A model generated the notes under the pieces. The model had not been told where the DNA came from. It saw only the letters and a list, made by a program, of their open reading frames with translations, and made no database searches. DNA of 24,539 nt from contig NW_003105610.1 in NCBI RefSeq assembly GCF_000003605.2, positions 116,587 through 141,125 of the forward strand, written 5' to 3'. Within the stretch, counting starts at the first letter, position 1. The number at the start of each line of letters is the position of its first letter. The position numbers and the translations under genes are program-made. Shown here in pieces: positions 1 to 20,270 of this stretch. This DNA comes from Saccoglossus kowalevskii. Lineage: Eukaryota; Hemichordata; Enteropneusta; Harrimaniidae.

Positions 1-2
1 CC

Positions 3-152
3 GCGTTTGCTATTATGTGTATGATAAGTGGACAGGTTGAATCAATATTGGAGAAAAATATATTATATATGACGATGGAAGGGGTACTTGACAATAATGT
101 CCGAGAACCCAACGTGAAAGTTGTGAGTTTGTCAATAAGTTCGAAAATATAA
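3..152 (+). pseudogene. Unrecognised open frame, left-arm copy, cut by the window start
   Basis: This is the left-arm partner of the frame at 17602-17805, in the same phase and with the same TAA stop at 150-152. It keeps the D-N-N-V-R-E-P-N core. It lacks one Leu codon relative to the right copy, an in-frame 3-bp difference. The 5' part lies outside the window, so completeness cannot be judged. No family is recognised. Confidence 0.4.
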
Positions 153-379
153 AGTTGGTTGTGGTTATTACCGAGTGACTATGCACACAACAGAACTTGT
201 GAATCGCAATGTACAAGAGATTGTTATGTAGACTTGTTCTTACACAGATGTATTTTGTATGCTTAAATATGCGACGTATGCATCAATCAAACATTAAACA
301 AACAAAGTGCACTGAGATATCTGATGGCGTGTGTGGCCTGTGCAATGTAATATCACGTTACTGGATGGATTGAATTTTA

Positions 380-655
380 ATGATTCACCGTTTCAATTCA
401 TGTAGGAATAGACCAATCGACACATGGACATACAAGAGTCAGTTCGCCATGCACAAAAATGCACACACTTTTCTGAGTTTTGTTCAACACAATATGTCAC
501 ACTACAGTCACATGAAATCATCATCCATATGTAACGTCGCGCAACAGTTTATATATACACTAGATCTTGCTGATACCATTCACTTAGTACCCTTATCAAT
601 GCATATATGCGAGTCATCGCATTGCATGTATGTCGCCCTTCATTTCGTGGTTTAG
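380..655 (+). pseudogene. Left-arm partner of the 16953-17186 frame, with an internal deletion
   Basis: This 91-residue frame matches the right-arm segment up to the T-L-D-L-A motif near 575. About 120 bp present in the right arm are then missing, and the rest is read in another phase, so its C-terminal third is not homologous at the protein level. The donor-like site that follows in the right arm (CAG|GTGGGT) is altered here to CAG|ATGAGT near 668-676, so splicing at this point would be lost. It looks like the more decayed copy. Confidence 0.35.
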
Positions 656-934
656 TGAGAATACTCAGATGAGTACTCACCCATGGAGTTTCTATATATT
701 TTTTTTGCATTAATACATTGTACGTTTTTTTCCAGCGTTAACACGTTGCATTACATTCGACAGTGAATGTACAATATGTTGTGTACGTTTGTCCACCTAA
801 GTTTGAGAATAGTTTCGACTATATAATAACTCAACATCCCAAAATATAGCAGCCTTAATACACGTAACCATTTATCGTAAACTTTTGTCTCAATGTACAA
901 ATAATGACATTATTTTGAATTTCGAATTGTAGGT

Positions 935-1090
935 AGTGTACTTGTAACGTATCATCAATTGTCCAGTAACTGTTATGAGCTTAAAATAGAAAGAGCAAAC
1001 ATCGTTTTTACTTCTTGGATATTAATGGACTATGGAATCTACGACATGCATGTAGCTCCAATTGATGGTTGGAGTGTTGTCATCGAATAA
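935..1090 (+). pseudogene. Left-arm partner of the 16349-16564 frame
   Basis: The frame is open from just after an acceptor-like TCGAATTGTAG (923-933) to a TAA at 1088-1090. It is collinear with the right-arm frame and mostly synonymous or conservative, with K-I-E-R-A-N-I-V-F-T-S kept exactly. It stops about 20 codons earlier than the right copy, at a GAA TAA where the right copy reads GAA CAA. Confidence 0.4.
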
Positions 1091-1524
1091 AACCATATTC
1101 AGGCAACCATTATATGGCATGAGCCTCCAGAATCAATTTATTCCAATCAGTATTTTCTGACTTTGATTTTGAGGAATATGGTGGTACGATCAAACTAACC
1201 GAAATAAAACATCAGTTTGGAACGAAAACACGAAACTGGACGATTTAAGCTGAAAGCAACATATTAAAACCTGTCCTCGCGGAATTTATTTATTGATTTA
1301 TTGTAATATAAGAAATATATTGTTCGTTTACCCATGTTGGATCAGATAACTACTCTGTTTTCTTTATGGTTGATGTTTTTACAATGTATTCAAATAGCAA
1401 TCGCTCGACTCTACAGATACAAATAGTACTTACATTAATGTCAATGCTGTTTTATAGCCAAGATTGTATATGAACAATACATTCAAATATAACATGTAAT
1501 TATTTGACAGAGATGTGTTGTTAT

Positions 1525-1600
1525 AGTGTAACAACCACAGTTATGGTTTTCAGCCTCGTACTGCTAATAAGAAGCTGACCATAATTGCGGCTGTTGCACT
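1525..1600. repeat. Imperfect hairpin at the inner end of the left arm
   Basis: Bases 1525-1553 (AGTGTAACAACCACAG...) and 1575-1600 (...GGCTGTTGCACT) are imperfect reverse complements around a loop of about 21 bases. The right arm has one matching half near 15862-15890. It sits where similarity between the long arms fades, so it may mark the inner boundary of the repeated unit. Confidence 0.55.
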
Positions 1601-2287
1601 GAATCACCGTTACTACATGTTTATGGTATGAACTTATATAAATAAAACAAAAAAATAAATATTTAAATAGATGGTTTTTGTCATAATTCTTAGAAATGTA
1701 GAGAACTATATTTAACTATTTGACCATTGTTGACGAGCCATTCTCATACTACTGATGCAAGCTAGTTCCGATCAGTGTGCGACATTTGTTATTGAAATAT
1801 TTGCATGCTTGTTGGCGAGAATGTAAGCAATTAACATCTCAGTGACCACATATATTGTTATATTTTAAAATATGATACATTGGAAACGAGTACTGCGCTG
1901 AATTGTTTGCATAATTGTTGGCAAATTAATCAAGATATTGTCTTTTTCAATAATTTTAAATATTCTACTTATTATGGATATAATTGAAATTGGCCTATCA
2001 TTATCGACGTCCAATACGGATCATTGTAAAAATTTTGACATGGGCAGACGAGTCGAACACATCGTAAATGATACAGCAGACAAAAATAATGACAGTGCTG
2101 GCTAAATTTATAAGTGAATTGTACAGCAAAAATAGTGGCTAATCTGCTCCAACCATTGGCTTGAAAAAGGATGTGTGCAAAAAGCTGTCTTATATGCACG
2201 GAACATTTCCTTAAAATTAAAAAAAAAAACAGCTGTACGAAATCCCGTTGTACATATGGGCCATATTTGACTCGAAGTGTTTGATGC

Positions 2288-2400
2288 AAATAATTTAATA
2301 ACTAGCGATTAGAAGCAATCCAATAATCGTTTTGAAATAAGTTGATAATATTGAACCTGGTTTCGTGTTTGCGATTTGATTAATCTCATTTAATTTTATC
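2288..2400 (+). repeat. Diverged direct repeat, copy 1 (copy 2 at 3690-3795)
   Basis: The stretch around TTTAATAACTAGCGATTAG and the following GATAATATTGAAC block is repeated about 1.4 kb downstream as TTTAATAATTAGTGATTAG and GGTAATATTGAAC. I count roughly 75 percent identity over about 65 bases, with a shared GATTAATC block after it. The unit is unknown and could be the 3' part of an old dispersed repeat or of a duplicated gene. Confidence 0.45.
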
Positions 2401-3689
2401 GTTGTTTTTCTTTAAATTATTTTTACAAAACACATTATTCACTGTCTGAACAAATTTGTCTACATTCAGTTTAGTTCACCAATTTGTAACAATGAATTAT
2501 TAGAAATAGTAAATATATTATATAACAATAATTCAATGTCAGAAATGTATTATTCGCTATTCAAATATTTCTCATATTATGAAAATATGTTATTTGCAAC
2601 AAATATTATTAAACTATAGTCTTGATTTGGTAAGTTGAAGGCTATCAATTCAGCTGTTCGTTTGTTCGGATATTGTTTTTTTTTATTTTGCAACATTATA
2701 TTACCATTATGTAAATGTATATAAATATCAATTTGCATTTGTTTTTAATACTACTGTATCTACTACCTACCATATTTAAAAGAAAACAGGAAAAAAGATG
2801 TGTCACTTGGATCACTGGTGCATGTATGGACATTTATATTACATTAAGTATAATCAGTTTATTCAGAAAACGAACAAAAACAATTCCCCTTCCTACATCA
2901 TACATTTTGAAAGTTATACTGCTATTAGCTTCATGTGTATGTTTGTGGAAATTAACGAACCATATTTGCATAACATTGGTGAAGTATTTGCTTATCTTAT
3001 AGTGGATTGAAGCATTAACTCTACAATGATTACTTATCCATACGCATACCACATTACCCATGATATATCTTGTGAGATGTGAGTTTATCTCTAGTACAAA
3101 TCTGAGAACGTACTTCTCAGGTAGCGTGCTTATCTTACAAGTCTTCATTTTTCAGCTCTGCTGTTGTTATGGCATTGAGAATACTCATGGTGTACCTAGT
3201 AATAAATTTAATAATTATCAACAATACGATGTGTAAGGTTTCTCTCATTTAATACATGAACACTATAGGACGCTGGCCACTGAATAGGATTATATACAGT
3301 CAATAATTGTAATGGAATAACAATCGATGCTGAAAAAAAAATTTCCACTGACCGGCGAAATTGGGATATATTCATGGTACATTTGCACTAAAACTGCAGG
3401 CTTTACAGCAAACCAAGTATATGAAGGCACGTACTGGAATGCAATCCGGCCAAACGCATTTTCATTAAACAAAATTGAAATACAACATTGTTTATATCCG
3501 GTAATCGTTTTACATTTATTATTAGTATTATACATTACCAGAATAGTATGTTTTTAATTGCATGTGTTTTGCCGCTGTTCAACTACAAGGTACCTAATTG
3601 TACAATACACTGACCAACAAATATGTATTTTAGTTAGTTTCGATGAGATTTGCTTGATTCAATCACACTTGTGTCGCAAATCTTAATGC

Positions 3690-3795
3690 ACATATTTTAA
3701 TAATTAGTGATTAGGAAAGGTCCAATACTGGTATTTAAATTACTTGGTAATATTGAACTTGTTTTTGATTAATCGGATTTATATTACTCCTTCTA
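3690..3795 (+). repeat. Diverged direct repeat, copy 2
   Basis: Partner of 2288-2400 in the same orientation, about 1.4 kb downstream. It keeps the spacing from the AATAATTAGTGATTAG block to the AATATTGAAC block, with one small deletion before GATTAATC. Confidence 0.45.
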
Positions 3796-4214
3796 ATTAT
3801 CTTTTTTTTCGAACATAATAACCCCCCTTGTATCCACGGTTAGTCTGTTGCACGTGTTGCAATGATTTTAACATGACTGATTTACAATATAACTTTCGAA
3901 TTTTTAGTATTTAATAATCATATATATGTTATATATTTTACTTTCACGGAAATAAAAGAATGTCGTGAGATCGAAACGAGATAATTAAAATTTGAAAATA
4001 TTTTACAGATTTTGTATATACAAATTAAAATAATTAAAATAATGTTGTCGTAATGACAATGTACTTTACAGAATACATTTAATAAATTATTTATGTTTTT
4101 TTTCAACGACTGATATTGTAAAATTGTTATTCTTATATCAGTATGTGGAGTTATTATGAATTGTGATTGTAAACAATTATTTGACATGGTATTATATGGT
4201 AAAAACTTGCCTAC

Positions 4215-4355
4215 ATGGTTACAACAAAAATGTGTTCTGTAGTTGAAGACGATACACCTGTTGGCATCATCGGAGAGGCAGGTATCCCGACTGAGTTCTT
4301 CCTCCTGACACATAACATGAAGCCGGTGCAAAAAATACAGCGCTTGTTGTGCTGA
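4215..4355 (+). CDS. Short unrecognised open frame
   Basis: This is an ATG-initiated frame of 46 codons ending in TGA. It has a notably protein-like composition: an acidic V-V-E-D-D-T-P-V-G-I-I-G-E-A-G stretch, then P-T-E-F-F-L-L and a basic end. Its local GC is higher than that of the surrounding AT-rich DNA. It may be an isolated exon of an unidentified gene or element. No splice partners or homologues could be established. The overlapping minus-strand frames at 3918-4331 and 4211-4417 look like shadows of it. Confidence 0.3.
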   Translation: MVTTKMCSVVEDDTPVGIIGEAGIPTEFFLLTHNMKPVQKIQRLLC

Positions 4356-5159
4356 TAGAGACCCAAGATAATTGCCGCACTTTGTGTGTCACCATTATAA
4401 TTAAAAAATAAAACCATATTGTGTTAAACTACCAATGATAGCAAATAAACAATTCCCCACAGTTTCGTTGAATGAAATACGTCATTAGCCATTAGCCTCT
4501 TTGATTTTAATAACGTTGCTCTTGCATATTTTCGAAGACATACTTGCCTGCCAGGGACAATATTCTTTTTCAAGCAGTTCTCTCTGTTCGAGTGAATTAA
4601 GTGTTCATTTTTTTCATTTAATTTAATTCATTTTTGCGATATTATTTTATTATTACAATGTACTACTATCTGTCAACTGTTTCTTATCAATAATATTGAC
4701 ACATAATTTTGCTGTTCATTGGGAAGACGCTTTTTCCATTATTTCCCTATGCATTTACTGTTATGAATGCAGTTCCTTAATGTTTTTTATATTCTCACCT
4801 GCTAGACTAAAATGGGTCACTGACTCGATTAGTTCAGTAGAACATTTTTATTAGTAATGTAACACTGATTTGTATTGTTTACTTGTTCATTTGGACATGA
4901 TGTGCTCTAAAAAATTACAATATTGTATTTAGGGTTAGATGTTAAACACGACCATATGTTAACCATTAATTATTCACAACCACAGTAGCGTCTTTTCCTC
5001 AAACACGTTGAAAGGTCGCTCTGCCACTGTATATCATATTAATAGTCCAGTCAATATATGCCAAGACCTTGAACAAACTGCAACAGAAAGTCTGTTTGCA
5101 AAAAATATTCAACCAACCTCCCCTCCCCTAAACATCATATAAAAAATGTAGAAAATGTA

Positions 5160-5198
5160 GGCAGTGGAAAATTGTTAATTTGCATATATTCAAAATTG
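5160..5198 (+). repeat. Short inverted repeat, left copy, flanking the nuclease gene
   Basis: GTTAATTTGCATATATTCAA and the next bases match the reverse complement of 9226-9262 (GTTAATTTGCATAAATTCAA...), about 30 of 37 positions by eye. The two copies bracket the XPG-type gene and its promoter-like motif, about 4.1 kb in all. It may be a terminal inverted repeat. Confidence 0.5.
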
Positions 5199-5680
5199 CT
5201 GCAAAATTAGGCAAATTTACACCAGAATAAGTATATAGCTTTGCATTATAAATTAATTTTGACATGTGTAAGGCCATGTGGAAGTGGTGATACATTATTT
5301 ACACAATAATAGGATGAGTGCCTTGATAAATGATGTAAATTGTCCAAAATGTCCGCCATTTTGAATAGAACATACCGGAAACAGAACAGAGCCACCATTA
5401 AGTATTCACTCACTTATATACATCAAATTACACTCTAGCATAACACGTAATAACGTAAACATGATGATGTTTTAAATAAATATATTCATATATTCATGAA
5501 CTAGAATTGTCTTTACACATAAAACGAATATATAAGTATGAGAATGACAATAATGAATTAATTTCAACCAATCATGAATAATATTAATTGTGCTCAACAA
5601 ATATTAGGTAAAACAAGCAGTCATATTATCATCAATTGTGTAAGTTACATCAATACATGCTCACAACCAGTTCTTTAGGA

Positions 5681-8603
5681 TTATATTTCTTCTTCATCAA
5701 TATTATGTGCAGAAACAGTTGAGTTTGTACAGCTAACACCCTTACATTCGCCTAATGCGAAAAAACATTCTAGACCATGGTTCTTGCAAATGCATCTTCT
5801 GGTATGACAATCTGATCTGCAGGTACACTTAATAATATTTAGAAGATATTCTGGAGCAGCTGCCAAATCAGTTGTTTTCGCTTCATAATGATCTTCGATT
5901 TTAACCCATCCACAGTCTTGAGGTTTTAAGTTTTTTAAATTTTCCATCCATTGCCGAATTTGAAAATAGACACGAGCACTGTGATAGCGCGCAGCAGCAG
6001 CTGTTGGTGGAATATTCTGAACCTGTACTGTATTGATACTAGCATATACTTTTGCACAAAATCGCCTGTATCGCAGTTTATCCAACCCCTCTCCTGGATC
6101 ACCACCATACAAAGAACATATAGCTCTCTCACCAGCAACATAGATTTCTTCCATAGATGATTCTCTAGTAAATACTTAAGCCTGCTTTTTGTAATCAGGG
6201 TCACTCTTTAATTTCCGTAGTGCTCCTCCTTTTCCAATGCCAAATAATCGTGATGTTGTATCGCATCCAGAAATAGCATGAATAAATGGCAACAACTGGC
6301 ATATCTCAGGTCCTAGTACATTATTAAGCCAATTTATATTTCATACTCTTGGTTTCGTTGATGTCTGTTTACCTTCTGTTCTGAAAATAATAGGGAAAGT
6401 CTTTACATTAGCATGGACACACAGTAGGACTACCAGATCTGGATAAGATATTATCTGAGCAATAAGTAAGTCAGCATCTTCTTCTGCATGGTTTGTTTTG
6501 AAGCCATTTTCCTGCAATTTTGCACTGAGCATGTTGATGAACTTTTGCTTGTTTTGGCAGTTGATAAGAAGGTTCCTTCATGGTCTTAATTGGCATGCTT
6601 CCAACAAAGTTCACTTGAGCACCCATAATGCCCTTTGAACGATGCACATGTGCACTATCTTTAGTAGAAGGTCCTGCTCCATATTCATCAAGACAATATT
6701 GGCGTTGGTATACTTTCGAAGTAATCTACATAACTTGGGCAGATGGAATCAAAGGTTTGCTCTTGCTTCCATGGAATGCGTTGGATTAGTGATCCACCAT
6801 CGAGCACATAATGCATTTCTGCCTCTTTTTGTATAGGCATAACAATTCCCCTACCAATTGTCCAAATAGCATCAGCAAGTTGTTTGCCGCTCGGAGGAGC
6901 CACAATAGTCAAAAAAGGATGATGGGTAATTACAGAGCAGGACATTATCAGTCACATTTGGTGCAACTGATATCAAACGCCGAAAAAGCAGCTGAGGGTC
7001 AATCTCTATGGAATCACCTGCAAATGTTATAGATTTTTTCTGGGCCATTGTATCTAGTTGCTACTTCCTCTTGAACGTATAATCTTGAACATTGTTTCCC
7101 ACCATTGAATGCAAAATGTTGTACCCAACTTCCTTTGCATTATTTGCATTCACAGTAGTATCAGCTGTTACATCATTAGCAATGTTTCACAGAAATGCAT
7201 CTGAACAAAATGGATTGCGTTCTGGAAGAAATTCTAGTATGTTACGTGTATTGTTGTCGTCTTTGTTTTGTCGAGCTGTAGTTGTGTTTTTATGTTGTTC
7301 ACTGGTCAAATAATTAAAATCTGTGAGGTCTTGCATAGCAGAATTAATGATTGCGCATGCTGGCATGGATGGTACCCATTGTGTACGAGAGTCAGCCATT
7401 CCACGACCCCTGGTCAATTACCAGGTCAGATGACAATCCAGCCCAATAACTATCACTCCGCCGAATGACATGCTAACCATTTCTAAAAAAATCCATTACA
7501 TCTGGATGCTCAATTACCAGGTCAGATGACAATCCAGCCCAATACCTATCACTCCGCCGAATGACATGCTAACCATTTCTAAAAAAATCCACTACATCTG
7601 GATGTTTGGATTCAAGCTGAAGCATTTGCTGTAAATAAATGTGGACAAATTTGGCATATAGATTATGCCCAGTACAGCATAATATGGCAGCATGTCTTTG
7701 AGTGACTGTAGGTGAAGACTCCAGTTCCCTGTCCGCTCTGCTTTGCTTTAATAAATTGGCGTAGAAGATCAACCATGTCCATATACTGTAACCATCGGCG
7801 TGCTGTTGGTTGAATGGTCAGTTCTTTTCGTCTATCATTTGCTTAATTTCATCAAGTAGACTTTCTGAGCAGACATCATCCACTGTTATCTCTCCACTCA
7901 TAAGCTTATCATAGAGTTCCACTGTGCTTTGAAATTCTCTCTGTTGTTCATTCCCTATTGGAGCAGCATCACCCACCTGGTTGGAGACTGCACCTTTCAA
8001 TTGGTACTTTTTGTGCATGATTCACAACCAATGTAGCTTCATCTCCAGTGACTTCATGCTCCATATCTTCAGCATTATGTGTATTAGGTAGACATACACC
8101 AAATGTGTCTGCTGTAACTATTGCATTCAGCGCAGTATCAACATGCATATGCCCTCTCACTGTTATGAACAAAGGCAATTCTCCCATGATCCTTCTTAGC
8201 CCAACTATCACCACGCTCATTACATATATGTACTATTGTGGTTTGAAAGTCTAAAGTTCGAACAGGGAAAACATCACGCCCTCGTTTCTTCCCTGAATGC
8301 TTTTCAGGCTGGCTACAAAATAAACAGTGTTCTCTAAAATTGAAAACTTGCTCAGATGAACGCAGAGTACAGCTAGTCGTAGCGAACTCTGTAGTTTGTT
8401 TCTTTAGGTCACGACTAATACAATTTTTATTACAGTATTGTGATCTGCATACTTCGTGGACAACTTGGCCCGCAGAGGTATGAAGAGTAAAACCTCTAAA
8501 ACGCACTTGCTCTATTAATACCACTACTCTCCTTCTCTCCAAGAACCACAGTCTGTAGTCCATTGTTAAGAGAGTCTCGACAAATAGTGCAGTTCTCCAT
8601 TGC
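5681..8603 (-). pseudogene. XPG-nuclease/Cys-cluster transposon protein, decayed
   Basis: The best start is the ATG at 8598-8600, just inside a splice acceptor (T-rich tract then TTTCAG, 8604-8632). It opens with M-E-N-C-T-I-C-R-D, a CxxC zinc ligand pair, followed by V-V-H-E-V-C-R (about 8475) and H-C-L-F-C (about 8325). The R-G-H-x-H-V-D-x-A-L-N block follows near 8150. In relatives I recall, a long central region precedes it, so a large internal deletion is likely near 8180. Then come K-A-E-R-T-G-N-W and L-Y-A-K-F-V-H-I-Y-L-Q-Q-M (about 7620-7740), R-G-R-G-M and M-P-A-C-A (about 7350-7410), L-D-G-G-S-L (about 6800), and D-A-D-L-L-I-A-Q with D-L-V-V-L-L (about 6430-6480; acidic nuclease motifs). 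A helix-two-turn-helix motif G-C-D-T-T-S...G-I-G-K-G (about 6215-6270) and an eight-Cys-like cluster (about 5710-5830) complete it. Several frameshifts and in-frame stops break it, including a TAA just before 6154. Confidence 0.7.
7414..7604 (-). repeat. 96-bp in-frame tandem duplication inside the nuclease pseudogene
   Basis: Bases 7414-7509 and 7510-7604 are nearly identical, with two internal mismatches seen. The period of 96 equals 32 codons, so the reading frame is preserved. On the minus strand each copy reads through H-P-D-V-(V/M)-D-F-F-R-N-G, a TAG (7569-7571 and 7473-7475), then R-R-S-D-x-Y-W-A-G-L-S-S-D-L-V-I. In relatives I recall there is one copy and no stop. The shared TAG shows that the gene was already dead when the duplication occurred. 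Confidence 0.9.
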
Positions 8604-9048
8604 CTGAAACACAAAAACAAAGTAAAGGTGTAATCGCTGTAAAAAGCGTTTATGTATCATATGGATTATAATGCAATAAATTTCACTATCTTACCTGTGA
8701 TCTGTTTTAAGTTTTATATATATATATAACTGCAGGTTTCACGTAAAAAAACTATGACTTGATAGGCTCTCATTAATTTCTGAAAGAAAATACCAAATAT
8801 ATTGAAATTGAAAGTCTCCAAATGCAGATCAACGGACATGAGTTTTCTAGAATTCAAAACCCGCAATCGCCTTTTTGATCATTTTAAGCAATATTCACCA
8901 TTATTTACCAGTGTATCTTTCGTGTGTGTTATTGCAAATAATCAAAGAGTAGTTTTCATAAAGAAAATTAGAAAACATGTCGCAAATCTACACATACACT
9001 AATATTTCGGAAATAAGAAGCCTCCAATAATTAATACTTGCTTTGAAA

Positions 9049-9066
9049 TACGGCGGCCATCTTGGA
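9049..9066 (-). promoter_or_regulatory. YY1-like promoter motif upstream of the nuclease gene
   Basis: On the minus strand this reads CCAAGATGGCCGCCG, a close match to the YY1 core AAGATGGCGGC. It lies about 450 bp upstream of the ATG at 8600 and in the correct orientation. The T-rich splice acceptor at 8604-8632 implies a 5' untranslated exon starting near this motif. Function is inferred from the motif and position only. Confidence 0.4.
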
Positions 9067-9225
9067 AAAAGGCCTCAGCTAAAAATGATCACCTACTAAT
9101 TGTATAATATAAATACTGTATTGTTTACTATACATCAAAATGTAGTTTTTCGAAGTCAACTGAACGCCCAAAACAATTTGCATGACTTATTTTAGGTATA
9201 AAATAGGAGAAAATAACTACATATC

Positions 9226-9262
9226 GTACGCCATTTTGAATTTATGCAAATTAACTATTTCC
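9226..9262 (-). repeat. Short inverted repeat, right copy, at the end of the DDE gene
   Basis: Partner of 5160-5198. It begins exactly at the stop codon of the DDE frame: the TAG at 9255-9257 overlaps the start of TTAATTTGCAT on the minus strand. The DDE protein appears shorter than relatives at its C-terminus, which would fit truncation at this junction. Confidence 0.5.
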
Positions 9263-11411
9263 CCCATCTTAGATTTTTGATATGTTGTTCTAGGTTTGCC
9301 AATTTTTTTGCTAGATTGACTGGACTAATTGGTTTTGAAGCCAAAAGCTGGTCAATATAGGCAAACATTCGCTCAGGCTGCTTATTGTGTTTTTCAACAC
9401 TCTGAGTAACCTGCTGCAGCTCTGGTGAAACTTCCTCATATCGGCCCCCAGGTAGATGATCCCTGAATTCCCGTCTGAGAAGTTTGGCTAGAGCTGGCAA
9501 CAGGATACTCAGAATAACCTGGCATTGAGTGTCATGCTCGGATGGTATGATCAGCTTATCAGTCACTGGACCAGCTTTCACAGGGATGTCTTCAGCGAAC
9601 AGGATTTTGCCTTCCATGAATTCTTTCACATTACGTGCTGCATCTTCTAAAAAGGTTACCAGCTGTAGATAATATTTGTTCATCCCTGTGATGCTAACAT
9701 CAGCACTGTCAATGATATTCCACAAAGGGGTGGTGATGATATTGGAAACCAACCCCAGTGCTTCACAACCAGCCAGAAAGAAGGGTGTCTGCATATCGCT
9801 CAAAACAGACTTAAGTAAACGATTGGTAGAAGCTGAAACATATTTGTTGAGAAAAGAAGTAATCTGTGGTGCAAGAAAAAAAATTGAGCCAGCATTTACA
9901 AAAAGTATATTAAAACGATTCCCTTTAAATGGCAACAAAGAAAGACTGTTCAACTTGTGCTCCAGTAAAAAAGGTTTAATAAAAGTGGAAAATGGCCCGT
10001 GGCATCCGCTCTTCTGGTCACCTCTTCTAGCTAGAGCTTTACATGCAGTTCGAATTAGTCGAATGGTTCTTGGCTCGCATGAATTTGCTGACTGCTTCTC
10101 TGTTCCAAGGACATTACCAGAAAAAAAAGTACATTCTACTTCCACCAATGTCTTCTGTGCTGTCTCAGCAATATGCACCAGTGAGTGCAGACCACAGTAA
10201 AAGTTGTTGAGACGACCCACTGCATTCTTGCTATCTTCAAGATGTGTGAGATAGTCATCCTTAACCAATGGGAGGATCTCTTTTCAATAATCGTCAACAA
10301 GGGTGTTAAACTTGATTTCTGTAGCTGCACGATCACTCATTGTATTTTGGATGTTACATAATAATCTTTTTCCTGATTTATTAGCTTGGCTGCTGACATC
10401 ATCAATATCTTGTAAGATTTCCTTATTCAATGTGTGTTCGGCTGACTTGGTAACTAGGTCCCGTAGACCTAACACACAATGAACACCTTCTCCATCCCTG
10501 GCTGTGTACGCCCCATACTTCTCACCATATTTTGAAGCCTCATCGGTATGAAGGGTTGTAGCAGGCTTCTGAGCAAAAACATCCCCTAACTGCTTTTGGG
10601 ATAAAATCCCCCTTTCCAAATTCCAGTTGTCAATAGTAGATTGCACAGGTAGTTTATTTGGAATGACCCCAAGAAATGATAAGCAGGCCCTGATTACTGG
10701 TGCAATATGGCATGGTGTTACACATTCATCTAACAACTTGTACGCCAACAAGTGCAATTCCTCTGTATATGTGTGCGTTTCCTCCGAATAAACTAGAAAA
10801 GTGGTACCCTCGTTTTTGCTGTATTTCATCCAGCTATGAAGTGAGTTGGACTACCAGACTTTCTTTGAACATTAAGCGGGCGGTTGCACTACTTCGCTTT
10901 TTTTCCAATCCCGGACACTTCTCCTTCCAATACCTTTCTTTTTCATGTGATCTTTTCAAATCAGCTCTCTTTCTTTTCTTGGGTTAGTACCGCATGCATG
11001 GAAGTGAGCTCCTCTGTCATATGTGCTTTGGAAAACTTCAGCTCTAATGCCAGGGATTGTGATACTTCATGATAAGTGCTTTGTGCATGTGTCACATCTT
11101 GTTTGCAAAAGGGCTGAGATGGTGATCTACCAACGACCTGTTTACCTTTGCTAATGGGATAGTTGTATAACTGCTCCTGCCACGTTTCCAAATCAGGTGG
11201 ACCATTTGGGCGGTGAAGATTTTTCTTTAATGCTTTAAATTTAGCAAACAAGTGACTAACGCTGTTGTTGTAGACTCATATTGATGCCATTGGAGTGCAG
11301 TTAGTGCAGACGCAGAGAGAAAGACTATAAACCCACCTGGCAACGTCCATTGTTGTCTTCACCTCCATCATCTGGGCTATTTCCCTGTTCGTCAGTATTT
11401 TCCGAGAACAT
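9255..11411 (-). pseudogene. RNase H-fold (DDE-like) transposase gene, decayed
   Basis: A plausible first exon starts at ATG 11409-11411 (M-F-S-E-N-T-D-E-Q, acidic) and ends at 11337 with a GCCAG|GTGGGT donor. The rest runs 11251-9255 through a Lys/Glu-rich coiled-coil region (about 10840-11250) with at least two frame changes. The catalytic-type motifs are T-D-E-A-S-K (Asp at 10542-10544), M-S-D-R-A-A-T (Asp at 10332-10334), a hAT-like C-G-L-H with following hydrophobics (about 10190), and G-C-E-A-L-G (Glu at 9762-9764), then P-L-W. The spacing and order suit a D-D-(CxxH)-E transposase core. An in-frame TGA at 10284-10286 follows V-D-D-Y, probably CGA to TGA decay. From 10268 to 9255 the frame is fully open for 337 codons. 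The C-terminus stops at W-G-K, apparently short, at the inverted-repeat junction. Confidence 0.65.
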
Positions 11412-12639
11412 CCTACACCAACACCACCACCAGTACCAGTACCACAAACAACAAACAAACGTCAAATCAAGAATGTTTCAATCCCTTACAAATTTTCATT
11501 GGGCTTGTTCAGTGAATTCAGTGGCGAACTACAAAGATTCGAAAAACATGGGCAGTAAACAATGCACTGTGCTGCCGCGATGATTGTAAACTACACTATT
11601 GTTTTTTAACCTGTCCAGACCTCTCCATTCAATTATCGGTACTCCTTGTTTTAGTCTGATTTCCTTGTGGTCCTCTTGGGTCGGGTGGCGTCCTTTGAGA
11701 AGATACATGGGTGCTTTTGTACTTGGCGTCAAGTTTGCTCCGCCGCACATCAAGTCAAGGTACTGTGGTACCATTGCTTCAAGTGAGCATCGAAGGGATG
11801 GCTAAAAAGCCACGTAGAATTCAATATTTATCGAGCGCAATAAATGTCCTTGCCTATATTTTATAATAAAGCTCTGCTCTAACAATCGTGTACAGTAGTA
11901 TTTTTTTTAGTAAATGTTGTGTGTTTTATTTCTGCTGTGGGATTGGTAGGGGGTTCGCAACCTCTTGTGGTGAGAACCGGTGTGACCGGCCTACCGGCAG
12001 GGTCCCATGGTTTAACATGATATGTCTTTTTTCCTTTATTAACTGTCAGCTGTACTTGTCTCTAACTGCGACACGAAAAAATCACTACTGCTACCACTAC
12101 TACTACTTGATTCCAATAGAGGTAACTGAGGATAAGCATGGTGGATAACCACAATATAAGCACAATATCAATCAATAATACTACCTACCTGATTTATTTG
12201 ATTACATTTTCTATGGTCTGTTTTTAATTATATCACCAAACTAATGACTTTCCAATTTTGTGTATTCAATCTAGCCTTTAAAAGCAATGTAATATATTTC
12301 TTACCTTGTAATAAATCTTTACTCAGACTCAACTATCAAATATAGTCAACTGTACTAGGCAAACTAAAAAAGGGGATTCATATAATTTTATTATATTTCA
12401 GTGTGTCGTGATATAACCAAAAATGTAATACTATTAACTGGGAAAGTTTTAGGCAAATATGTACTATGTAATAGGTATGATTTGTAACCTTGTATTGCCT
12501 GATGGTCCATTCACCATTTTTTGATTCAGTGCTTCAAACGTTTACAGTATTGTAACTCTACATCAAGCATTAAGTCATGATAAGTGCAGGGAACCCATTG
12601 CCGTTGCTCATTTGTTTACAGATGAGACGATCAAAACCA
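11412..12639. other. Interval without a supported gene
   Basis: Open frames here (for example minus 11529-11774 and plus 11888-12148) show no recognisable motifs and overlap each other on both strands. The part just above 11411 may be the 5' untranslated or promoter region of the DDE gene. A GGTTCGCAACC stretch near 11953-11963 resembles a tRNA B box, but I could not build a SINE around it. From 12150 to 12600 the sequence is plain AT-rich DNA. Confidence 0.5.
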
Positions 12640-12990
12640 ACGTACTATCGTTAAAATCACTTCCGGGTTTGAAAAACATGGCCGCGCACATTGGCGTTCG
12701 CCATTACAGCCAATCGACTACCAAAGACATGTTCACAGGTTGATATTCTACACTGATAATGCCGTGATACGCTATGACATTCCAAAAAAAAAACGATAGC
12801 TTATTATAATTAAACCGTTTTTAAACCGCCGCTAAAATGCCACAAAAATGCGTAAATTTACTCACTATTATCGGCAACTCACAGCAGCACATCTAATCTT
12901 TCTGATGACGTGCATGTTATCCCATAATACTTTCGAAACTAAGATCTCGCATAATTTTGCGAGATTTCGACCTCTTTCAAGATGGCGATC
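12640..12990 (+). promoter_or_regulatory. TATA-less promoter-like cluster (ETS, YY1, split TCTCGC/GCGAGA)
   Basis: ACTTCCGGGT at 12659-12668 fits an ETS site. AACATGGCCGCG at 12675-12686 and AAGATGGCGA at 12979-12988 resemble YY1 sites. ATCTCGC (12944-12950) and GCGAGAT (12959-12965) form a small inverted pair. Local GC rises against AT-rich surroundings. YY1 sites are known in LINE 5' regions and in housekeeping promoters, so this may be the 5' UTR promoter of the LINE downstream. The second YY1-like site overlaps a tiny ATG frame (M-A-I-K-Q-L) that meets a GTGGGT donor-like site. Confidence 0.4.
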
Positions 12991-13212
12991 AAGCAACTAG
13001 TGGGTTGTAATTAGAGCTCCGCGTTATGTGTGTTTTGAGGCCTTTAGTCTACAGTAACAGTATTTATTAAGCGTTATTTACAGCCAGGAAATACTCGGTA
13101 AATGACATTCGGTTTTAACAAGTTTGGGATTCAAACACAGTTTTGGGTAACAGAACAGTTTTTTTATGTTTTTACGTGTGGCAGATAGTAGACATCCCGG
13201 TGATGGGGGCGC

Positions 13213-13560
13213 CCTAACTTTCGGCAAAAGTAAGAACGAAGAGAGCAGCCATCTTGTCGACCACGAGGTGGAGGCAATGTCGAGGCCGGAGTTGGTATCC
13301 TATGCAAAAAATTGTTGAAAATGGGTTTAAAGAGGTTGCAGTTCTGAAATTCAGGGCTGTCGTGAGATAGCCGAGATGATTGAGTGGGTTAAAGCAGTTG
13401 CAACTAAACAACAAGAACTGGAAATGGCTGTTGCTTCAAATGAAGAAACTGTATGAGAGCTCACAACAAAAATTGAGGCACTGTCACAATGTAAGGCCTG
13501 CTTATTGCAATTGAGGGGGCCACCCACAGAACTCACAATGGACAGGGGGTTCTTTCACGG
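13213..13560 (+). pseudogene. LINE ORF1-like coiled-coil remnant
   Basis: In one plus-strand frame, about 13225-13310 reads through D-H-E-V-E-A-M-S-R-P-E-L-V-S-Y-A-K. After stops and a frame change, about 13370-13545 reads through I-E-W-V-K-A-V, Q-Q-E-L-E-M-A-V-A-S-N-E-E-T and T-K-I-E-A-L-S-Q-C-K-A-C. The heptad-like pattern of Leu/Ile/Val with Glu and Gln suggests a coiled coil, as in ORF1 of CR1-like LINEs. It carries at least three stops. It could instead be part of another protein. Confidence 0.35.
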
Positions 13561-14511
13561 TTAGTATGGGGTAGACAAGACAATAGTACTGGAAATGAAA
13601 TACACATACACCAAAATATCGAGTTAAAGCTTCTGGCTTTAATACCTCTCAAAATAATTACAAGAAATGAAGCACAGAAAATACAATGATTAAAGTCACT
13701 AAAATAGGGGATTGTGTAGGGAAGTGTGCATTGGTGATAACTCACAGTTCCAGGATGCATTAATGCTTGCAGAGGAACGCTGGTATTCTGGAGGGCACCG
13801 CTGGAAGCAGGAGGAGATCGCAGAGCAGTTCATACAAGTCTCACAGAATGATGGTTGTAGCCTATCAAACAATATCGTAGCCGAACACACCGGATACCAA
13901 GTTGAAATGATCGACGACAATCTGACTTGAGTCTGTCCAATTTATAGGCATGATTCAGTGTCACCCCCTGGGTTTCCACATAGGCCAATCAGAATGTGAT
14001 CTTTCTAGCAGCTGGGTCACGTAGGCAACTCAGCAGATCATAAACATCCTTTGTTTTTCAAATAACAGCACACCTGGTAGATTCCAATTCTTCTTCCAAA
14101 GTTGTAAACACCCTTTGTTATGTAAATTACAAGCACACCTGGTAAAACTCACTGTCCAAACAAGTATGACCTGTCAATCACCTTTATGATAATTATCACA
14201 GTGCACACCGTTTCTTTCCATGATTCCATGCAAACTTCCATTTGCAGGGTTTGAGGTAATATGAAAAACACATGAAAAATATAGGATGCTGGCATTGCCC
14301 CGTCATCAAGACTGAACATGTCACATTTTCAGTCCAATAATCAGCATCAACTACCAATAAATTTACATTTCTCAAAATTGAAAACAAATATTGTAACAGT
14401 AACTCTAACCGTTCCTGCTTAAATAGTCTGCACCTATATGTTCTTTACCATTAATTGTTATAATGCGGTAGCTAAAAGATTTCAAAGACTTATCGTGCCT
14501 TGTTTAAATAA
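13561..14511 (+). other. Interval between LINE-like parts, no clear gene
   Basis: The plus frame 13712-13930 (72 codons) is GC-richer than its surroundings and contains E-E-R-W-Y-S-G-G-H-R-W, but I recognise no family. A partial tandem duplication at 14041-14144 is listed separately. From 14163 to 14511 nothing is evident. Confidence 0.4.
14041..14144 (+). repeat. Imperfect tandem duplication of about 64 bp
   Basis: TAAACATCCTTTG...AGCACACCTGGTA at 14041-14079 recurs as TAAACACCCTTTG...AGCACACCTGGTA at 14105-14144. Each copy is followed by a TCCAAA motif (about 14095-14100 and 14155-14160). The offset is about 64 bp. Confidence 0.6.
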
Positions 14512-14967
14512 ATGAATACTAACTCCCAAAAAAAAGTTATCATAGGGATAATTTATATGAAACCTGGTACTGAGATTGGTGAATTTAAGAACAGTTTATT
14601 ACGGGTTTTATCTCAACTGAAACTTGAAAAATACAATCGTGTGCTCATGGGAGATTTCAATATTGGCTTATCCAAACATGAATCACATACTGATAATTTG
14701 GTTTCAACTTTTCAAATATTTTATCTACACCGACTTATTACAGTTGAGTCACAAATACCAGTAGCAGTTTTAATAGATTATATATATATTCTGGTGTCAT
14801 TACCACAGATGTCTCAGACCATTTTCCGACTTTTTGATAGTGTCCTTTCTACAAATATGTCACACACAGTAAAAAAAAGTTATAGAGATTTTAAGGCTGA
14901 TAAATTTAATGAAGACTTACTAAGTGAATCATGGGATGATGTATTTACATGTAATGATGTCATATGA
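14512..14967 (+). pseudogene. LINE apurinic-endonuclease domain fragment
   Basis: This 151-codon frame has the order of an exonuclease-endonuclease-phosphatase domain of a non-LTR retrotransposon: I-I-G-I-I-Y (about residue 10), R-V-L-M-G-D-F-N-I (about 44-52; the G-D-F-N catalytic motif), L-I-D-Y-I-Y (about 87) where relatives have a T-L-I-D-H/N-I motif, and a spot near 105 where an S-D-H motif is expected but not clear. It then passes into the linker K-K-S-Y-R-D-F...F-N-E-D-L. The N-terminal third of a normal endonuclease is absent. The frame ends in TGA at 14965-14967, and the homology carries on beyond in shifted frames. It is not active as it stands. Confidence 0.65.
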
Positions 14968-15174
14968 CAGATTCTATCCAATTTTCAACAAGATATGTGA
15001 TAAGCATGTACCATTAATGCAATAAGTACAAGAACAGTAAACCCTGGATTACATCTGCTCGTAAAAAATCGATCAAGACAAAACATAAAATAAATACAAA
15101 GGTTCTGATAACAAATCATAGGGAAAACGAGCTTGCACAGTATAGACAATATATAAATATACTGACCCGCGTGT

Positions 15175-15451
15175 TACTTGTTCCCAAAAACTATAGGCCA
15201 ATTGTCAATCTCGTATTTAGGAACTAAATCATGGAACATTCTGCCCGTCACATTAAGATCACAACCAAAGCATATATATTCAAACAAAAGCTGAAGAATT
15301 TATTATTGGCGAGATACACCACATAACTTTATTTAGTTTTTTTTTAATTTTGGTTGTTCTTTTGTAAAACGGTATTGTCATGAAGTAATATATGGCTGCA
15401 TTATTTTTATTTACTTATTCATATCATATCATATCATATCATATCATATCA
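15175..15451 (+). pseudogene. LINE 3' end with (ATATC)n tail
   Basis: Short shifted frames show N-Y-R-P-I, then a W-N-I-L-P-like segment, and I-F-K-Q-K-L-K-N-L-L-L (about 15275-15310). This is the usual C-terminal signature downstream of the reverse transcriptase in CR1-like LINEs. The stop is followed by about 100 bp of AT-rich 3' UTR and the pentamer array ATATC x6 at 15421-15450. A short tandem-repeat tail in place of poly(A) is typical of CR1/L2-like LINEs. Confidence 0.6.
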
Positions 15452-15857
15452 AAAGAACGATGCATTGCATACTATCCATCCATTAAAGTATTCAACATTT
15501 TTTTAATACGTGATAACAATTTTTAAAATCATAAGAGAAACATGTTCTTCGGATTAAACTCCATTATGAACGTTCTTTCATCCAATATTTGAAGTAATAT
15601 TTAATAGATGCAGTTCTCAAATATTACAAGTACAGAAGGAATAAATAGCACAATGATCGAAACTAGTAGAATACTGATAAAGTAGTAAAATAATTAAATT
15701 AGATTTTCTTGATCCTAACTAAATACCTTTTTTTTTCTTATGAAACTATTTAACTAGTTCCGTTAAATGTTATTATTTGTCATATTCAAACTACACAATG
15801 TTTTGGAAGAAAATATTTATTTAGATGTAAATATATAGATTTTGCGGACTTGTACTG
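15452..15857. other. AT-rich spacer between the LINE tail and the long inverted repeat
   Basis: I see no open frame, repeat or motif of note. The stretch from 15790 to 15857 has weak AT-rich resemblance to 1640-1690, possibly a decayed continuation of the long inverted repeat. Confidence 0.5.
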
Positions 15858-15956
15858 CAGCCATAATTGTGGTTGTTACACTATAACAACATATCTCTGT
15901 CAAACAATAGTTCAATAGCATGTTACATTCCAATGTATTGTTCATACAAATCGTGG

Positions 15957-16139
15957 CTATAAAACAACATTGACATCATTGTAAGTAATATTTGTATCAG
16001 TAGAGTCGAGCGATTTTTCATATTTCTTCATATTCATCTGGCTGTTGGGACCATTGCCATTTGAATACATTGTAAAAACATCAACTGTAAAGAACGCAGA
16101 AGTCATCTGATCCAACATGGGTAAACGAACAATATATTT
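15957..16139 (-). CDS. Unrecognised exon-like frame, last segment of the repeated gene
   Basis: This is an open frame of 60 codons ending in TAG at 15957-15959. It starts directly at a good splice acceptor: a T-rich tract followed by TGCAAG, read on the minus strand above 16139. A donor-like GGAA|GTAATA lies about 60 bp further upstream, which would give a very short intron. The segment begins K-Y-I-V-R-L-P-M-L-D-Q and ends T-Y-N-D-V-N-V-V-L. The left arm has the same acceptor and the same first codons (from about 1317), but then loses the frame and a piece of about 45 bp. I suspect this is the 3' coding exon of the repeated gene. No family is recognised. Confidence 0.35.
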   Translation of the reverse strand, partial: KYIVRLPMLDQMTSAFFTVDVFTMYSNGNGPNSQMNMKKYEKSLDSTDTNITYNDVNVVL

Positions 16140-16348
16140 CTTGCATTACAAAAAAACAATAAATATATTCCACGAAGACGGGTTTTAATATATTACTTCC
16201 AGCTCAAATCGTCCAGTTTCGTGTTCTGCTTCAATATTCATTTAGTTTTTGTTCCAAGTAACATATGTAGACCACGTTTTACTTCGGTTAGTTTGATCGT
16301 ACCACCATATTTCTCAAAATCAAATGGAAATGTATACCCAGTCATAAA

Positions 16349-16564
16349 CTACTGATTGGAAGAAATTGATGGAGGCACATGCCATGTAATGGTTGTCTGG
16401 ATATGGTCTTGTTCGATGACAACACTGCCGCCATCAATTGGAGCTCCATGCATGTCATAGATTTCATAGTCCACCAGTATCGAAGAAGTAAAAACGATAT
16501 TTGCTCTTTCTATTTTAAACTCATACCAGTTATTGGATAATTGATGATACGTTACAAGTACATC
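16349..16564 (-). CDS. Unrecognised exon-like frame, third segment of the repeated gene
   Basis: This frame has no ATG near its start and begins just inside a splice-acceptor-like TTTGAATTGTAG (16567-16578), so I read it as an internal exon. It is open for 71 codons to a TAG at 16349-16351. The left arm has the same frame at 935-1090, open for 51 codons. The two copies share V-L-V-T-Y-H-Q-L-S, K-I-E-R-A-N-I-V-F-T-S and A-P-I-D-G-x-S-V-V-I-E. The alternation of hydrophobic and polar residues suggests beta strands. I do not recognise the fold. The phase does not match the best upstream donor I could find, so the exon structure is incomplete or decayed. Confidence 0.4.
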   Translation of the reverse strand, partial: DVLVTYHQLSNNWYEFKIERANIVFTSSILVDYEIYDMHGAPIDGGSVVIEQDHIQTTITWHVPPSISSNQ

Positions 16565-16952
16565 ACCTACAATTCAAAATGTTAAATAACTCCGTTACTA
16601 GTACAATGGCACATAATTTACGATTAATGGTTACGAGCATTTTAGGGTGCTATACTCTGGGATGTTGAGTTATTATATAATCAAATCTATGCTCAAACTT
16701 AGGTGGACAAAAGTACAAAACATATAGTACATTCACTGTCGACACACATGCAACTTTGTAACGCTAGAAGAAAACGTACAATGTATTCATGCAAATATAT
16801 ATATATATAGAAATTCCATTGTGAGTACCCACCTGAGTATTCTCACTAAACCACGAAATGAAGGGCGACAAACATGCTATGCGATGGGCTCGCATATATA
16901 CATTGATAATGGCACTAAGTGAATGGTATCAGTAATATGACACGCAACTTTT

Positions 16953-17186
16953 TCATATAGACATGAGAATATTAATTAGTTGGGAACACTGTTTGGATGC
17001 ATGTGACAAACTTTCAGATTGAACTGCAACTCCTTGTGGAAACATTTGGTGTGCACATCGTTGTGCAAGATCTAGTGTCTTTATAAACTGTTGCGCGACG
17101 TTACATATGGATGATGATTCCATGTGACTGTAGTGTGACATGTTGTGTTGAACATAACTCCGAAAGGATTGTGCATTTTTGTGCAT
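16953..17186 (-). CDS. Unrecognised open frame, second segment of the repeated gene (right-arm copy)
   Basis: This is a 77-residue frame. The first part matches the left-arm frame 380-655, including the block N-M-S-H-Y-S-H-M and C-N-V-A-Q-Q-F-I. The left copy lacks about 120 bp just after the shared T-L-D-L-A, so it continues in a different way. The right copy also contains a Q-M-F-P-Q-G-V stretch and a Ser-rich region. Further along the minus strand a continuing open stretch ends near 16831-16840 at a strong splice donor (CAG|GTGGGT). The segment is polar with no membrane span. I do not know the family. Conservation between arms argues for coding, but neither copy is proven expressed. Confidence 0.35.
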   Translation of the reverse strand: MHKNAQSFRSYVQHNMSHYSHMESSSICNVAQQFIKTLDLAQRCAHQMFPQGVAVQSESLSHASKQCSQLINILMSI

Positions 17187-17601
17187 GGCGAACTGACTCT
17201 TGTCTGTCAGTGTGTCGATTTATCTAACGTGGTCTATTCCTACATGAATTGAAACAGTGAATCGTTAAAATTCAAACCACCCAGTAACCATGATATTACA
17301 TTGGACACGCCCACACATACCACAATATATCCCAGTTCATAGCAGGTTTTTTTCAGAGAATTCTTTTCAATTCAAAATTATATTACGTTGATCACTTTGG
17401 ATTACATTACGTTGTCAGCTACATAGAGATCACTTTGTTTGTTTAATCTTTGATTGATGCGTACGTCGCATCTTTAAGCATACAAAATGCATCGGTGTAT
17501 GGACAAGTCTACATAACAATCTCTTGCACATTGCGATTCACCTTTTAATATATTGAAGTTCTGTTGTGTGAGTAGTCACTCGGTAATAACCAGAACCGAC
17601 T

Positions 17602-17805
17602 TTATATTTTAAAACCTCTTGATAAACTTACAACTTTCCCGTTTGGTTCTCGGACATTATTGTCAAGTAACCCTTCCATCAACGTCATATATAATAACTT
17701 TTTCTTCAATATTGATTCAATCCATCCACTCATCTTACACATAATATCAAACCCGTAACGTACCCACCTGCCATTATATTGCGTTATTCGCATCATAATT
17801 ATCAC
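17602..17805 (-). CDS. Unrecognised open frame, outermost segment of the repeated gene (right-arm copy)
   Basis: This is a 67-residue frame ending in TAA. The left arm carries the same frame at 3-152, ending at the same TAA. Over about 48 shared codons the copies differ by scattered substitutions and one 3-bp indel (a Leu codon between Thr and Met), so the frame is kept despite clear divergence. That is the pattern of former or present protein-coding sequence. The shared core holds the motif M-E-G-x-L-D-N-N-V-R-E-P-N followed by K-V-V-S-L-S. The upstream part (about 17745-17805) may be intron or UTR, since a GGCAG|GTGGGTACG donor-like site lies at about 17760-17773. I recognise no family. The Met start is only the first ATG of the frame and is not supported otherwise. 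Confidence 0.4.
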   Translation of the reverse strand: MIIMMRITQYNGRWVRYGFDIMCKMSGWIESILKKKLLYMTLMEGLLDNNVREPNGKVVSLSRGFKI

Positions 17806-18097
17806 TAGTTAGACAGTTCTTCATTAATATATACTCACTATTATATTCTCCAGCCATTATATCCTGCAAAAAAATATTAAAACGTAAAAATCATTTCGTT
17901 TGCACAAGTCAATATGCCTTGATTTATATGTACAATATATAAATTTCTTTGCAATGTCATCATGTATGTTGTACAGTATAGAGTATATCAGACTGTGAAA
18001 TTCATCTATTTGATGACCTTATTTAACACCCAGTCAATAAAAAATCACTCGGATTTAATTTGCTCACATTGCAACACAATGAATTGTTGACCAAAAT

Positions 18098-18307
18098 GTG
18101 TCCTCTAGGCTTGACGAAGATGATTCGTTCGTGATGAGATTGTTTCCAGTGCAGAATTATAACGAATCATTATTTCAAATACATACCGTATTTATGTTCG
18201 TGAAGACATTGCTAATGTTTAGAAGAAAAGCACATACGAAACATAATATATACGTCATATTCATGGAACTCCCAACACTTGAACAAATTAAAAGTAAACA
18301 TCATTAG
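18098..18307 (+). CDS. Unrecognised open frame in the left foldback arm
   Basis: This is a 69-codon frame whose second half, about 18200-18275, contains K-H-N-I-Y-V-I-F-M-E-L-P-T. The mirror arm encodes K-H-N-I-Y-V-I-F-M-E-I-P-T on the minus strand near 18765-18810. Around this core the differences between arms are mostly third-position or conservative (Ala, Thr and Thr codons synonymous; Leu/Ile; His/Tyr), which points to coding constraint before or since duplication. The mirror copy has an acceptor-like CATACAG just before the homologous region. Only the shared part is likely coding, and the first half (D-E-D-D rich) may be chance. No family is recognised. Confidence 0.35.
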   Translation: MSSRLDEDDSFVMRLFPVQNYNESLFQIHTVFMFVKTLLMFRRKAHTKHNIYVIFMELPTLEQIKSKHH

Positions 18308-18601
18308 TAAAGAAAACGTACAATACGTTTCTTTTGTTTCTTAATTTGTGTACAGGATGACGAATTAAGTATGTAATAAAATAGAACGATTCTCCATAAC
18401 ATTATATGTGATGGTACAGTCAATCACATTGGTAATAATTGAAAATGTGAAGTAAAGAAACGCCGTTGAAAATGTTTGCAAAATAACTAATGAACATTTA
18501 CAATAGGGCCACAATCTTAATGTGTGATTGAGTTTAAACAGTTGTAAATGCTCATTATTTCAAATATTCATTCAATTATTTTCAACTGTGTTTTCACATT
18601 A

Positions 18602-18697
18602 TTAATTTTTACCATTGTGATTGACATTACCATCGCTGTCAGCACATCTAATTTTATGGAGATTCGTTCTATTCTCATTACATATGTAATTCGCCAT
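18602..18697 (-). CDS. Tiny unrecognised open frame in the right foldback arm
   Basis: This is a 31-codon ATG-to-TAA frame with a protein-like, polar composition: M-A-N-Y-I-C-N-E-N-R at the start and D-S-D-G-N-V-N-H-N-G near the end. The matching part of the left arm (about 18358-18450) is interrupted. It may be the last exon of the same unknown gene as 18098-18307. Short and unproven. Confidence 0.2.
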   Translation of the reverse strand: MANYICNENRTNLHKIRCADSDGNVNHNGKN

Positions 18698-19108
18698 ATT
18701 GAGCAAGATGAGAAACAAAGAAAACGTCTTGTACGTCTTTACTAAAAATGTTTACTTTAATTTGTTCACGGTTGGGATTTCCATGAATATGACGTATATA
18801 TTATGTTTTGTGTAAGCTTTTTTTAACATTTGCATTGCTTTCACAAAACTGTATGTGGTATGTATTTGAAATAATTATTTGAAATAATTCTGCACTGGAG
18901 ACGATCTCATCATCTCATCTCATCTCTCATCTTTGTCCAGAACATATTTTGTTCAACAAATCATTGTGTTGTATTGTGAGTAAAATAAATCCGAGTGATG
19001 TTATATTGACTGATCGTAACATAATGTCATAAAATAGATGAATTTCATATACTATATAATGTACAGCATAATTTTCACCAAATAACTACGCGTTTAATGA
19101 TGACATTG

Positions 19109-20270
19109 ATAATATATATATATATATATATCTTATAGAAGAACCTTCCCAAAGAAAAGAAATTCTAATATTTAAAAACATAAGAGTTAGTCACTAAACC
19201 ATGTACTTTCACACTCAAGCAAGAGAAAAGACATGATGATGAACTAGCCTTGCTCTGTGAGTATTTTATTATTTGAAGTATGTTAAATACCATTTTTTTC
19301 ACAAATAAAAAAAAAAAGAACTGCAAACCTCACTTCTTTATATCTTTGAGTGGGCCGGCCAAGTTTCCAAATAAAAAATACACATAATATTTCTATTTAA
19401 TTTATTTTGTTTTATAACATTTTCACTGCATTCTTTGGAATATATTTACCGTTTACAAATTAATGTGTTGAACAATATATAATCTCAATATTTTACAATC
19501 TATATCCTTATTTTTGAATCTGTTTCAAGACATTTGAAAACATTATTTTGGAATCATAACAATACAACGACTAGATTTGGTGTCACAGTTTGCTCCCAAT
19601 TCATATTGGAATATTGCCAGAAATAATTAATAAAGCTTGTTCAGAATACTATTTAATCCCCACATTATATTCAGTGGCTAGTTCTCAGGACCTGCAACAG
19701 TAAATAAATATACAGGATTCATTTTGATGCCATGTTTGTAGACGACACCGCCATATCGAATTTTGATACCATATCATTTAAAGCTGCAGGGTGTCTAAAC
19801 AATGACTCAACAAACAATAAACACATCTTCCACCCACCACACAAATGTTAGCCATAATTGGACAACCAAGAAAGCAACAAATATCAGGCTGCATCCTGAA
19901 AACAACGACGGCATTACAACCAGTCATTACAAACATGAAATCTTCCACCCCTCCCAGTACACCCTACAACATTAATGAACCCTATACTCATTTGCATATA
20001 TTTACAACAAGCTTAGCCAATAGATGTACCTGACTCATCAAACTTTTGACCAACCACTCATTCTAAATATTGTTGAGTGAAGGCGCTATTTACGAATGAG
20101 AGGAATCTTTTAAAAAAAATAAACAGATATATATATATATATATATTTCTCCACTGTGTATTAAACAATGTATCTTTCATGAACAAATTATATTCTCTGA
20201 GTTTAGTTTCTTATTTACTTGAAAAAGTGTTCCTAGTAGTATTATATTCTATTTGGCCATCCTCCCTATT
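19109..20270. other. AT-rich interval, no supported gene
   Basis: AT dinucleotide repeats lie at 19110-19131 and 20128-20147. A short minus-strand open stretch at 19678-19773 (31 codons, containing R-Y-G-G-V-V-Y-K-H-G-I-K and ending in G-P-E-N then TAG) looks protein-like but is too short to assign. Nothing else is evident. Confidence 0.5.

Follow-up and report, generated by a model that had tools for sequence, protein, structure and literature searches.

Two kinds of described system come closest to the locus analysed here. Inverted segmental duplications and palindromic gene clusters likewise have long inverted arms that carry host gene sequence and occupy few places. The arms in palindromic clusters are alike, as they are within one of the loci described below (contig C1737), but in our case both exon copies are broken and the arms stand in a star-like relation to the other copies rather than being homogenised. 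Large DNA transposons of the Maverick/Polinton type offer a likeness in the inverted arms of at least 1.5 kb that lie about 14 kb apart. The locus differs from these elements in its few copies, in the lack of a recognised element gene among the arm ORFs searched and in an inverted homology that goes past the unit on C1737.

The window (the whole stretch of 24,539 nucleotides that was analysed) comprises positions 116587-141125 of contig C56 of Saccoglossus kowalevskii, which is the right end of this 141 kb contig in a genome of 572 Mb and 4,830 contigs. It contains an inverted pair of arms that has few paralogues and shows stops and deletions, with one high-copy repeat between the arms. We regard it as quite probable that the arms represent a host gene block that was duplicated long ago in inverted orientation and has since decayed and been filled with repeats. 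Most likely, then, the inverted repeat is what remains of a small clustered gene block whose members have decayed, rather than a giant mobile element. As a phenomenon such a duplication is ordinary. Minor points of interest are an exon family without Pfam match and a hairpin-forming segment, which travel with sulfotransferase gene duplications in the same genome. Coordinates are collected in Table 1.

Table 1. Parts of the window, with the matches that define them
Feature	Position	Strand	Remarks
Left copy of gene block	1-5038	+	Enters from left window edge
Left copy against C1737 arms	3-287, 5-198, 702-2284, 2284-3113, 3427-4159, 4229-4608, 4602-5038		75-84%
Left copy against C2617	9-570 and 579-2211		79-86%
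Likely exon of left copy (Ig/FN3-like, predicted), broken	932-1162	+	Own-genome match C56:117518-117748, 74% amino acids, one TAA
Hairpin-forming segment (about 100 nt), found in six unit copies	1500-1622	+	Right arm ends (15861) before completing it; other copies on C2617, C1737 (three) and C56:62888-63005
Sulfotransferase-like fragment, 61 nt, out of collinear order	4164-4224	+	C1737 471889-471829, 88.5%, E 2.7e-15
Stretch between copies, probably repeat-filled	5039-15860		Unit homology absent except repeat-like pieces
High-copy interspersed repeat	13482-14294		Own-genome search
Right copy of gene block, inverted	15861-18503	-	C2617 79621-77131, 82.6% over 2,668 columns
Likely exon of right copy, broken by one TAG	16277-16567	-	Own-genome match C56:132863-133153, 86% amino acids
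Second outer end of block, opposite direction	18510-19070	+	C1737 456151-456730, 79%; C2617 77093-77626, 79%

The inverted pair of arms

The inverted repeat that the preliminary description placed at 1-1602 and 15858-17757 is real, as both self-BLAST and gapped alignment recover it. Positions 2-1546 align in reverse with 15861-17755 at 88.9% over 1,537 paired columns (self-BLAST pieces 2-309/17755-17431, 308-570/17339-17065 and 564-1546/16938-15861), and the changes amount to 88 transitions and 82 transversions. The left arm carries 17 of the 22 gaps, and 16 of the 22 are not multiples of three. The window thus has two homologous, oppositely oriented copies at a single locus, as expected of an inverted segmental duplication.

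A comparison of the window with itself loses the homology at 1546/15861. Inward of these positions even the best alignment obtained is marginal (score 95.5, against a mean of 82.8, a 95th value of 95.0 and a maximum of 104.5 in 100 shuffles) and the collinear BLAST pieces have E-values of 0.16-0.42. Copies on other loci run through window positions 1547-1602, where the right arm has already ended. The inner edge at 1546 was considered as a transposon end and rejected, because other copies continue through it and the sequence there forms one side of the stem of a hairpin.

Comparison with the other loci indicates that the arm limits first given are too narrow: the left copy reaches to approximately 5038 and the right copy outward to approximately 18503. 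The right copy also matches both C1737 arms (81-85%). Because the second outer end runs the opposite way from 18510, the stretches 17965-18503 and 18510-19070 together form a 1.1 kb palindrome (17965-19070). The left outer end is unseen, the 20 kb fetched to the left of the window reading N, and on the right the contig ends at the window's edge. Scans of the window for Rfam families (at gathering score) and tRNAs were empty.

Copies elsewhere in the genome

Searching the arm sequence against the same genome, a check proposed with the initial claim, gives few loci and a low copy number. Arm 1-1602 has at least 17 matches on five contigs, with long ones only on C56 (both window arms and an end piece at 62903), C1737 (456910-458388 forward, 478666-479644 reverse, and 557729) and C2617 (77790-79677). 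The matches on C1740 are short and diverged (162512 forward and 180908 reverse, 70-72%), and C4014 has one piece of about 76 nt. For the outer end (17453-19140) at least 25 matches are found on C56, C1737 and C2617, including two short ones on C2602 and C2315. These counts are lower bounds, as very common words were skipped, and the contrast between low-copy and high-copy sequence is qualitative. Within such bounds, few loci and few copies are what an inverted segmental duplication would give; the many dispersed copies of a large DNA transposon did not appear in the own-genome searches of arm and outer end. Viral_contigs and genome_contigs held no relatives for the queries sent.

Comparable inverted pairs are present on two other contigs. 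On C1737, 456161-465511 pairs with 480424-466969 (85-92% in the longer pieces), and the block sits inside a palindrome of about 50 kb, in which 449748-453956 and 499800-494440 form a further pair. C1740 has a pair at 162140-163478 and 181423-179999 (82%). Matches to the window end at 18503, the point at which its own sequence turns back, and C1737 and C2617 share sequence beyond the corresponding point (455853/76744).

The relations between the copies tell something about their history. Both window arms (L and R), the C2617 copy and the C1737 arms are star-like with K2P distances of 0.10-0.14. The exception is the C1737 pair, whose two arms are close to each other (0.054) and may have undergone gene conversion. 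The window arms group with a tree support of 0.62 and informative sites of 7, 7 and 4, and are therefore not clearly each other's closest relatives; this unclear pairing would weaken a simple local duplication. With C2617 as reference, substitutions are even between the arms (59 left, 53 right). Leaving out gaps below 3 nt, C2617 holds sequence at 10 of the 11 left-arm gaps (9 of 11 if the left C1737 arm, C1737L, must hold it too), which are therefore losses on the left arm. In the outer-end palindrome, each half groups with its counterparts at other loci (support 0.98-0.99), so this palindrome seems older than the copying.

A likely exon in the block

Four short collinear frames had been noticed in the arms. 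Most of them are unremarkable: the left arm has 10 stop-free stretches of at least 45 amino acids, where 200 mononucleotide shuffles gave 7.7 on average and 14 at most, and the arm-against-arm changes carry no coding signal in any of the six frames (synonymous fractions of changed codons 0.17-0.24). One frame, at 932-1162 and 16567-16277, does look like a true exon and, judged from sequence comparison, is likely to be one. It measures approximately 99 codons and has at least nine copies genome-wide; five of the nine lack an internal stop, and the frames of these five stay open down to 28-30% identity. Against C1740 the exon aligns gap-free over 267 nt, and its amino-acid identity lies above neutral placement (43 and 24 of 2000). 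Comparisons of the C2617 copy with the C1737 copies do not depart from the neutral expectation (267 and 562 of 2000 simulations). Overall the coding signal is moderate.

Both window copies contain a stop, and the left one has a 16-nt deletion further on. Two working genes in the window were rejected on account of these stops. We infer that the exon is part of an expressed gene. Its predicted fold is a seven-strand beta sandwich (pLDDT 80.9, pTM 0.69) that matches Ig/FN3-like domains, so the exon is predicted to encode a sandwich domain of this type. Unlike catalogued Ig/FN3-like domains, however, it has no Pfam family above cut-off (best DUF7055, E 0.11-0.23) and shares 5-17% identity with the fold matches shown; the best PDB profile, IL17RB, is weak (E 0.75). 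Searches of Pfam, PHROGs and PDB gave no significant match for the arm ORFs that were submitted. Weak Pfam and PDB matches of these ORFs (GAP1-N1, DUF7055, SufE, BRX_N, T7 5.5, SH3, OspA, amylase and IL17RB), with E-values of 0.047 or worse, were taken as chance.

Sulfotransferase genes beside the block

C1737, C1740 and C2617 have genes of the carbohydrate and galactose-3-O-sulfotransferase families (PF00685 and PF06990) within the block or next to it. C1737 has a sulfotransferase ORF at 471511-472479 (Pfam Sulfotransfer_1, E 3e-12) and galactose-3-O-sulfotransferase ORFs at 450938-452164 and 496273-497449, the second in two pieces. C2617 has a sulfotransferase ORF at 91237-92235 and C1740 a broken sulfotransferase sequence at 176857-176422. 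Further sulfotransferase E-values in Pfam are 8e-58 on C1737 and 9e-46 on C2617. On C1737 and C1740, the right copy has the likely exon and the sulfotransferase sequence on one strand, the exon being upstream. The copies thus carry host gene sequence, with the likely exon in both arms and sulfotransferase genes in the C1737 block. In the large C1737 palindrome (449748-499800) the galactose-3-O-sulfotransferase genes occupy both outer arms and the complete Sulfotransfer_1 ORF one inner arm only.

Unlike these loci, the window keeps only the 61-nt fragment, out of order, of which 22 amino acids match by tblastn (E 4e-6). Its filled interior starts at approximately 5039, near where the C1737 sulfotransferase gene would follow. 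The sulfotransferase protein has 39 matches in its own genome (46 candidates scored), and close relatives are found on C1844 (76%, open) and C2915 (57-81%, broken). The exon search found no copy on these two contigs; gene and exon are therefore not strictly linked. Against PDB sequences the C1737 sulfotransferase gave no match at E 0.001.

A hairpin-forming segment

Window positions 1500-1612 and five other copies were folded as single sequences, with energies of -28 to -43 kcal/mol. Five of the six formed a long hairpin, the exception being the C56 piece at 62.9 kb, which folds differently. At the hairpin its identity is 85-87% with C1737L and with the left window copy and 72% with C2617, against 69-78% in most other aligned blocks, with short blocks elsewhere reaching 79-92%. 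With a covariation term of +0.67 and changes on both sides in none of the 34 predicted pairs, a conserved RNA structure has no support. It is conceivable, though rather unlikely, that a clustered gene family, marked by an uncatalogued Ig/FN3-like domain, is maintained in inverted pairs at three loci (C56, C1737 and C1740) with the hairpin segment in its units, and that the palindromic layout and the hairpin are functional. If so, they could give rise to hairpin RNA, or serve as the substrate when gene conversion between the arms shapes the family.

The interior between the arms

A LINE and a DNA transposon had been proposed between the arms. Neither is confirmed by Pfam, as the interior ORFs sent (from the minus strand of 5039-15860) gave no match, but one interior stretch is indeed a high-copy repeat. 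Window positions 13100-15850 have at least 44 matches on at least 37 contigs, window included, with 40 of 719 candidates scored, and these lie mostly over 13482-14294.

Some further features of the interior can be mentioned. A run of open frames without Pfam match extends over 5681-11275 on the minus strand; by eye, the cysteine-rich tail of the last one resembles that of an ORF at C2617:93684-94184. There is a 57-nt inverted pair at 5143-5199/9230-9286, and a 96-nt unit is tandemly duplicated at 7411-7602 (97% identical).

Interpretation and alternatives

We propose that the arms are two paralogous, oppositely oriented copies of a host gene block. The block would carry at least one likely exon, from a small Ig/FN3-like family, and sulfotransferase sequence downstream on the same strand where better preserved (C1737 and C1740). 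It would have multiplied in a few clusters (C56, C1737, C2617 and C1740), three times as inverted pairs. A partly palindromic block would have multiplied first, decay and repeat insertion in the window coming later: both exon copies would have been broken, the left arm would have lost pieces by deletion the right arm would have been cut short at 15861, and repeats would have filled the space between. We infer this order of events, and also that the pairs arose by duplication with inversion.

The preliminary description had offered two readings: a host gene duplicated in inverted orientation, with transposons filling it later, and the terminal repeats of a very large DNA element. The former is supported by the low copy number and the sulfotransferase neighbours on C1737 and C1740, and the exon broken in both window copies and the high-copy repeat between the arms fit it further. 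The latter agrees poorly with so few copies and with the outer pairing on C1737. A very large but low-copy mobile element, with long terminal inverted repeats and captured host exons and sulfotransferase genes, could account for an inverted layout that recurs at three loci and for unit ends that meet in palindromes. Nonetheless we consider it quite improbable, given the few copies against at least 37 contigs for the interior repeat, the C1737 homology continuing past the unit, and arm ORFs without significant Pfam or PHROG match among those sent.

The neutral look of the arm-against-arm changes in all six frames, together with the C2617 and C1737 exon comparisons within the neutral range, would also suit an old low-copy noncoding repeat family that lies near sulfotransferase genes by chance and whose exon is a chance frame. 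This is highly unlikely in view of the gap-free alignment to C1740 with an amino-acid identity above neutral placement, the open frames in five of nine diverged copies and the confident predicted fold. An assembly artefact, in which two haplotypes or copies were joined head to head, might be suspected from the position of the window at a contig end and the run of N on its left; yet the arms differ by 11% plus the left-arm deletions, and the comparable pairs lie inside other contigs, which makes it extremely improbable.

Sequence to the right of the block

An open frame of 158 codons at 21944-22420 on the plus strand has no Pfam match and a related stretch at C1737:442895-443300 (68%); we take it to resemble the N-terminal part of the protein-primed DNA polymerase B of Polinton-like elements. 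At 23863-24297 on the minus strand lies a broken mariner-type transposase (Pfam Transposase_1, E 5e-13), and the adjoining stretch 23069-23611 is 73% identical to C2617.
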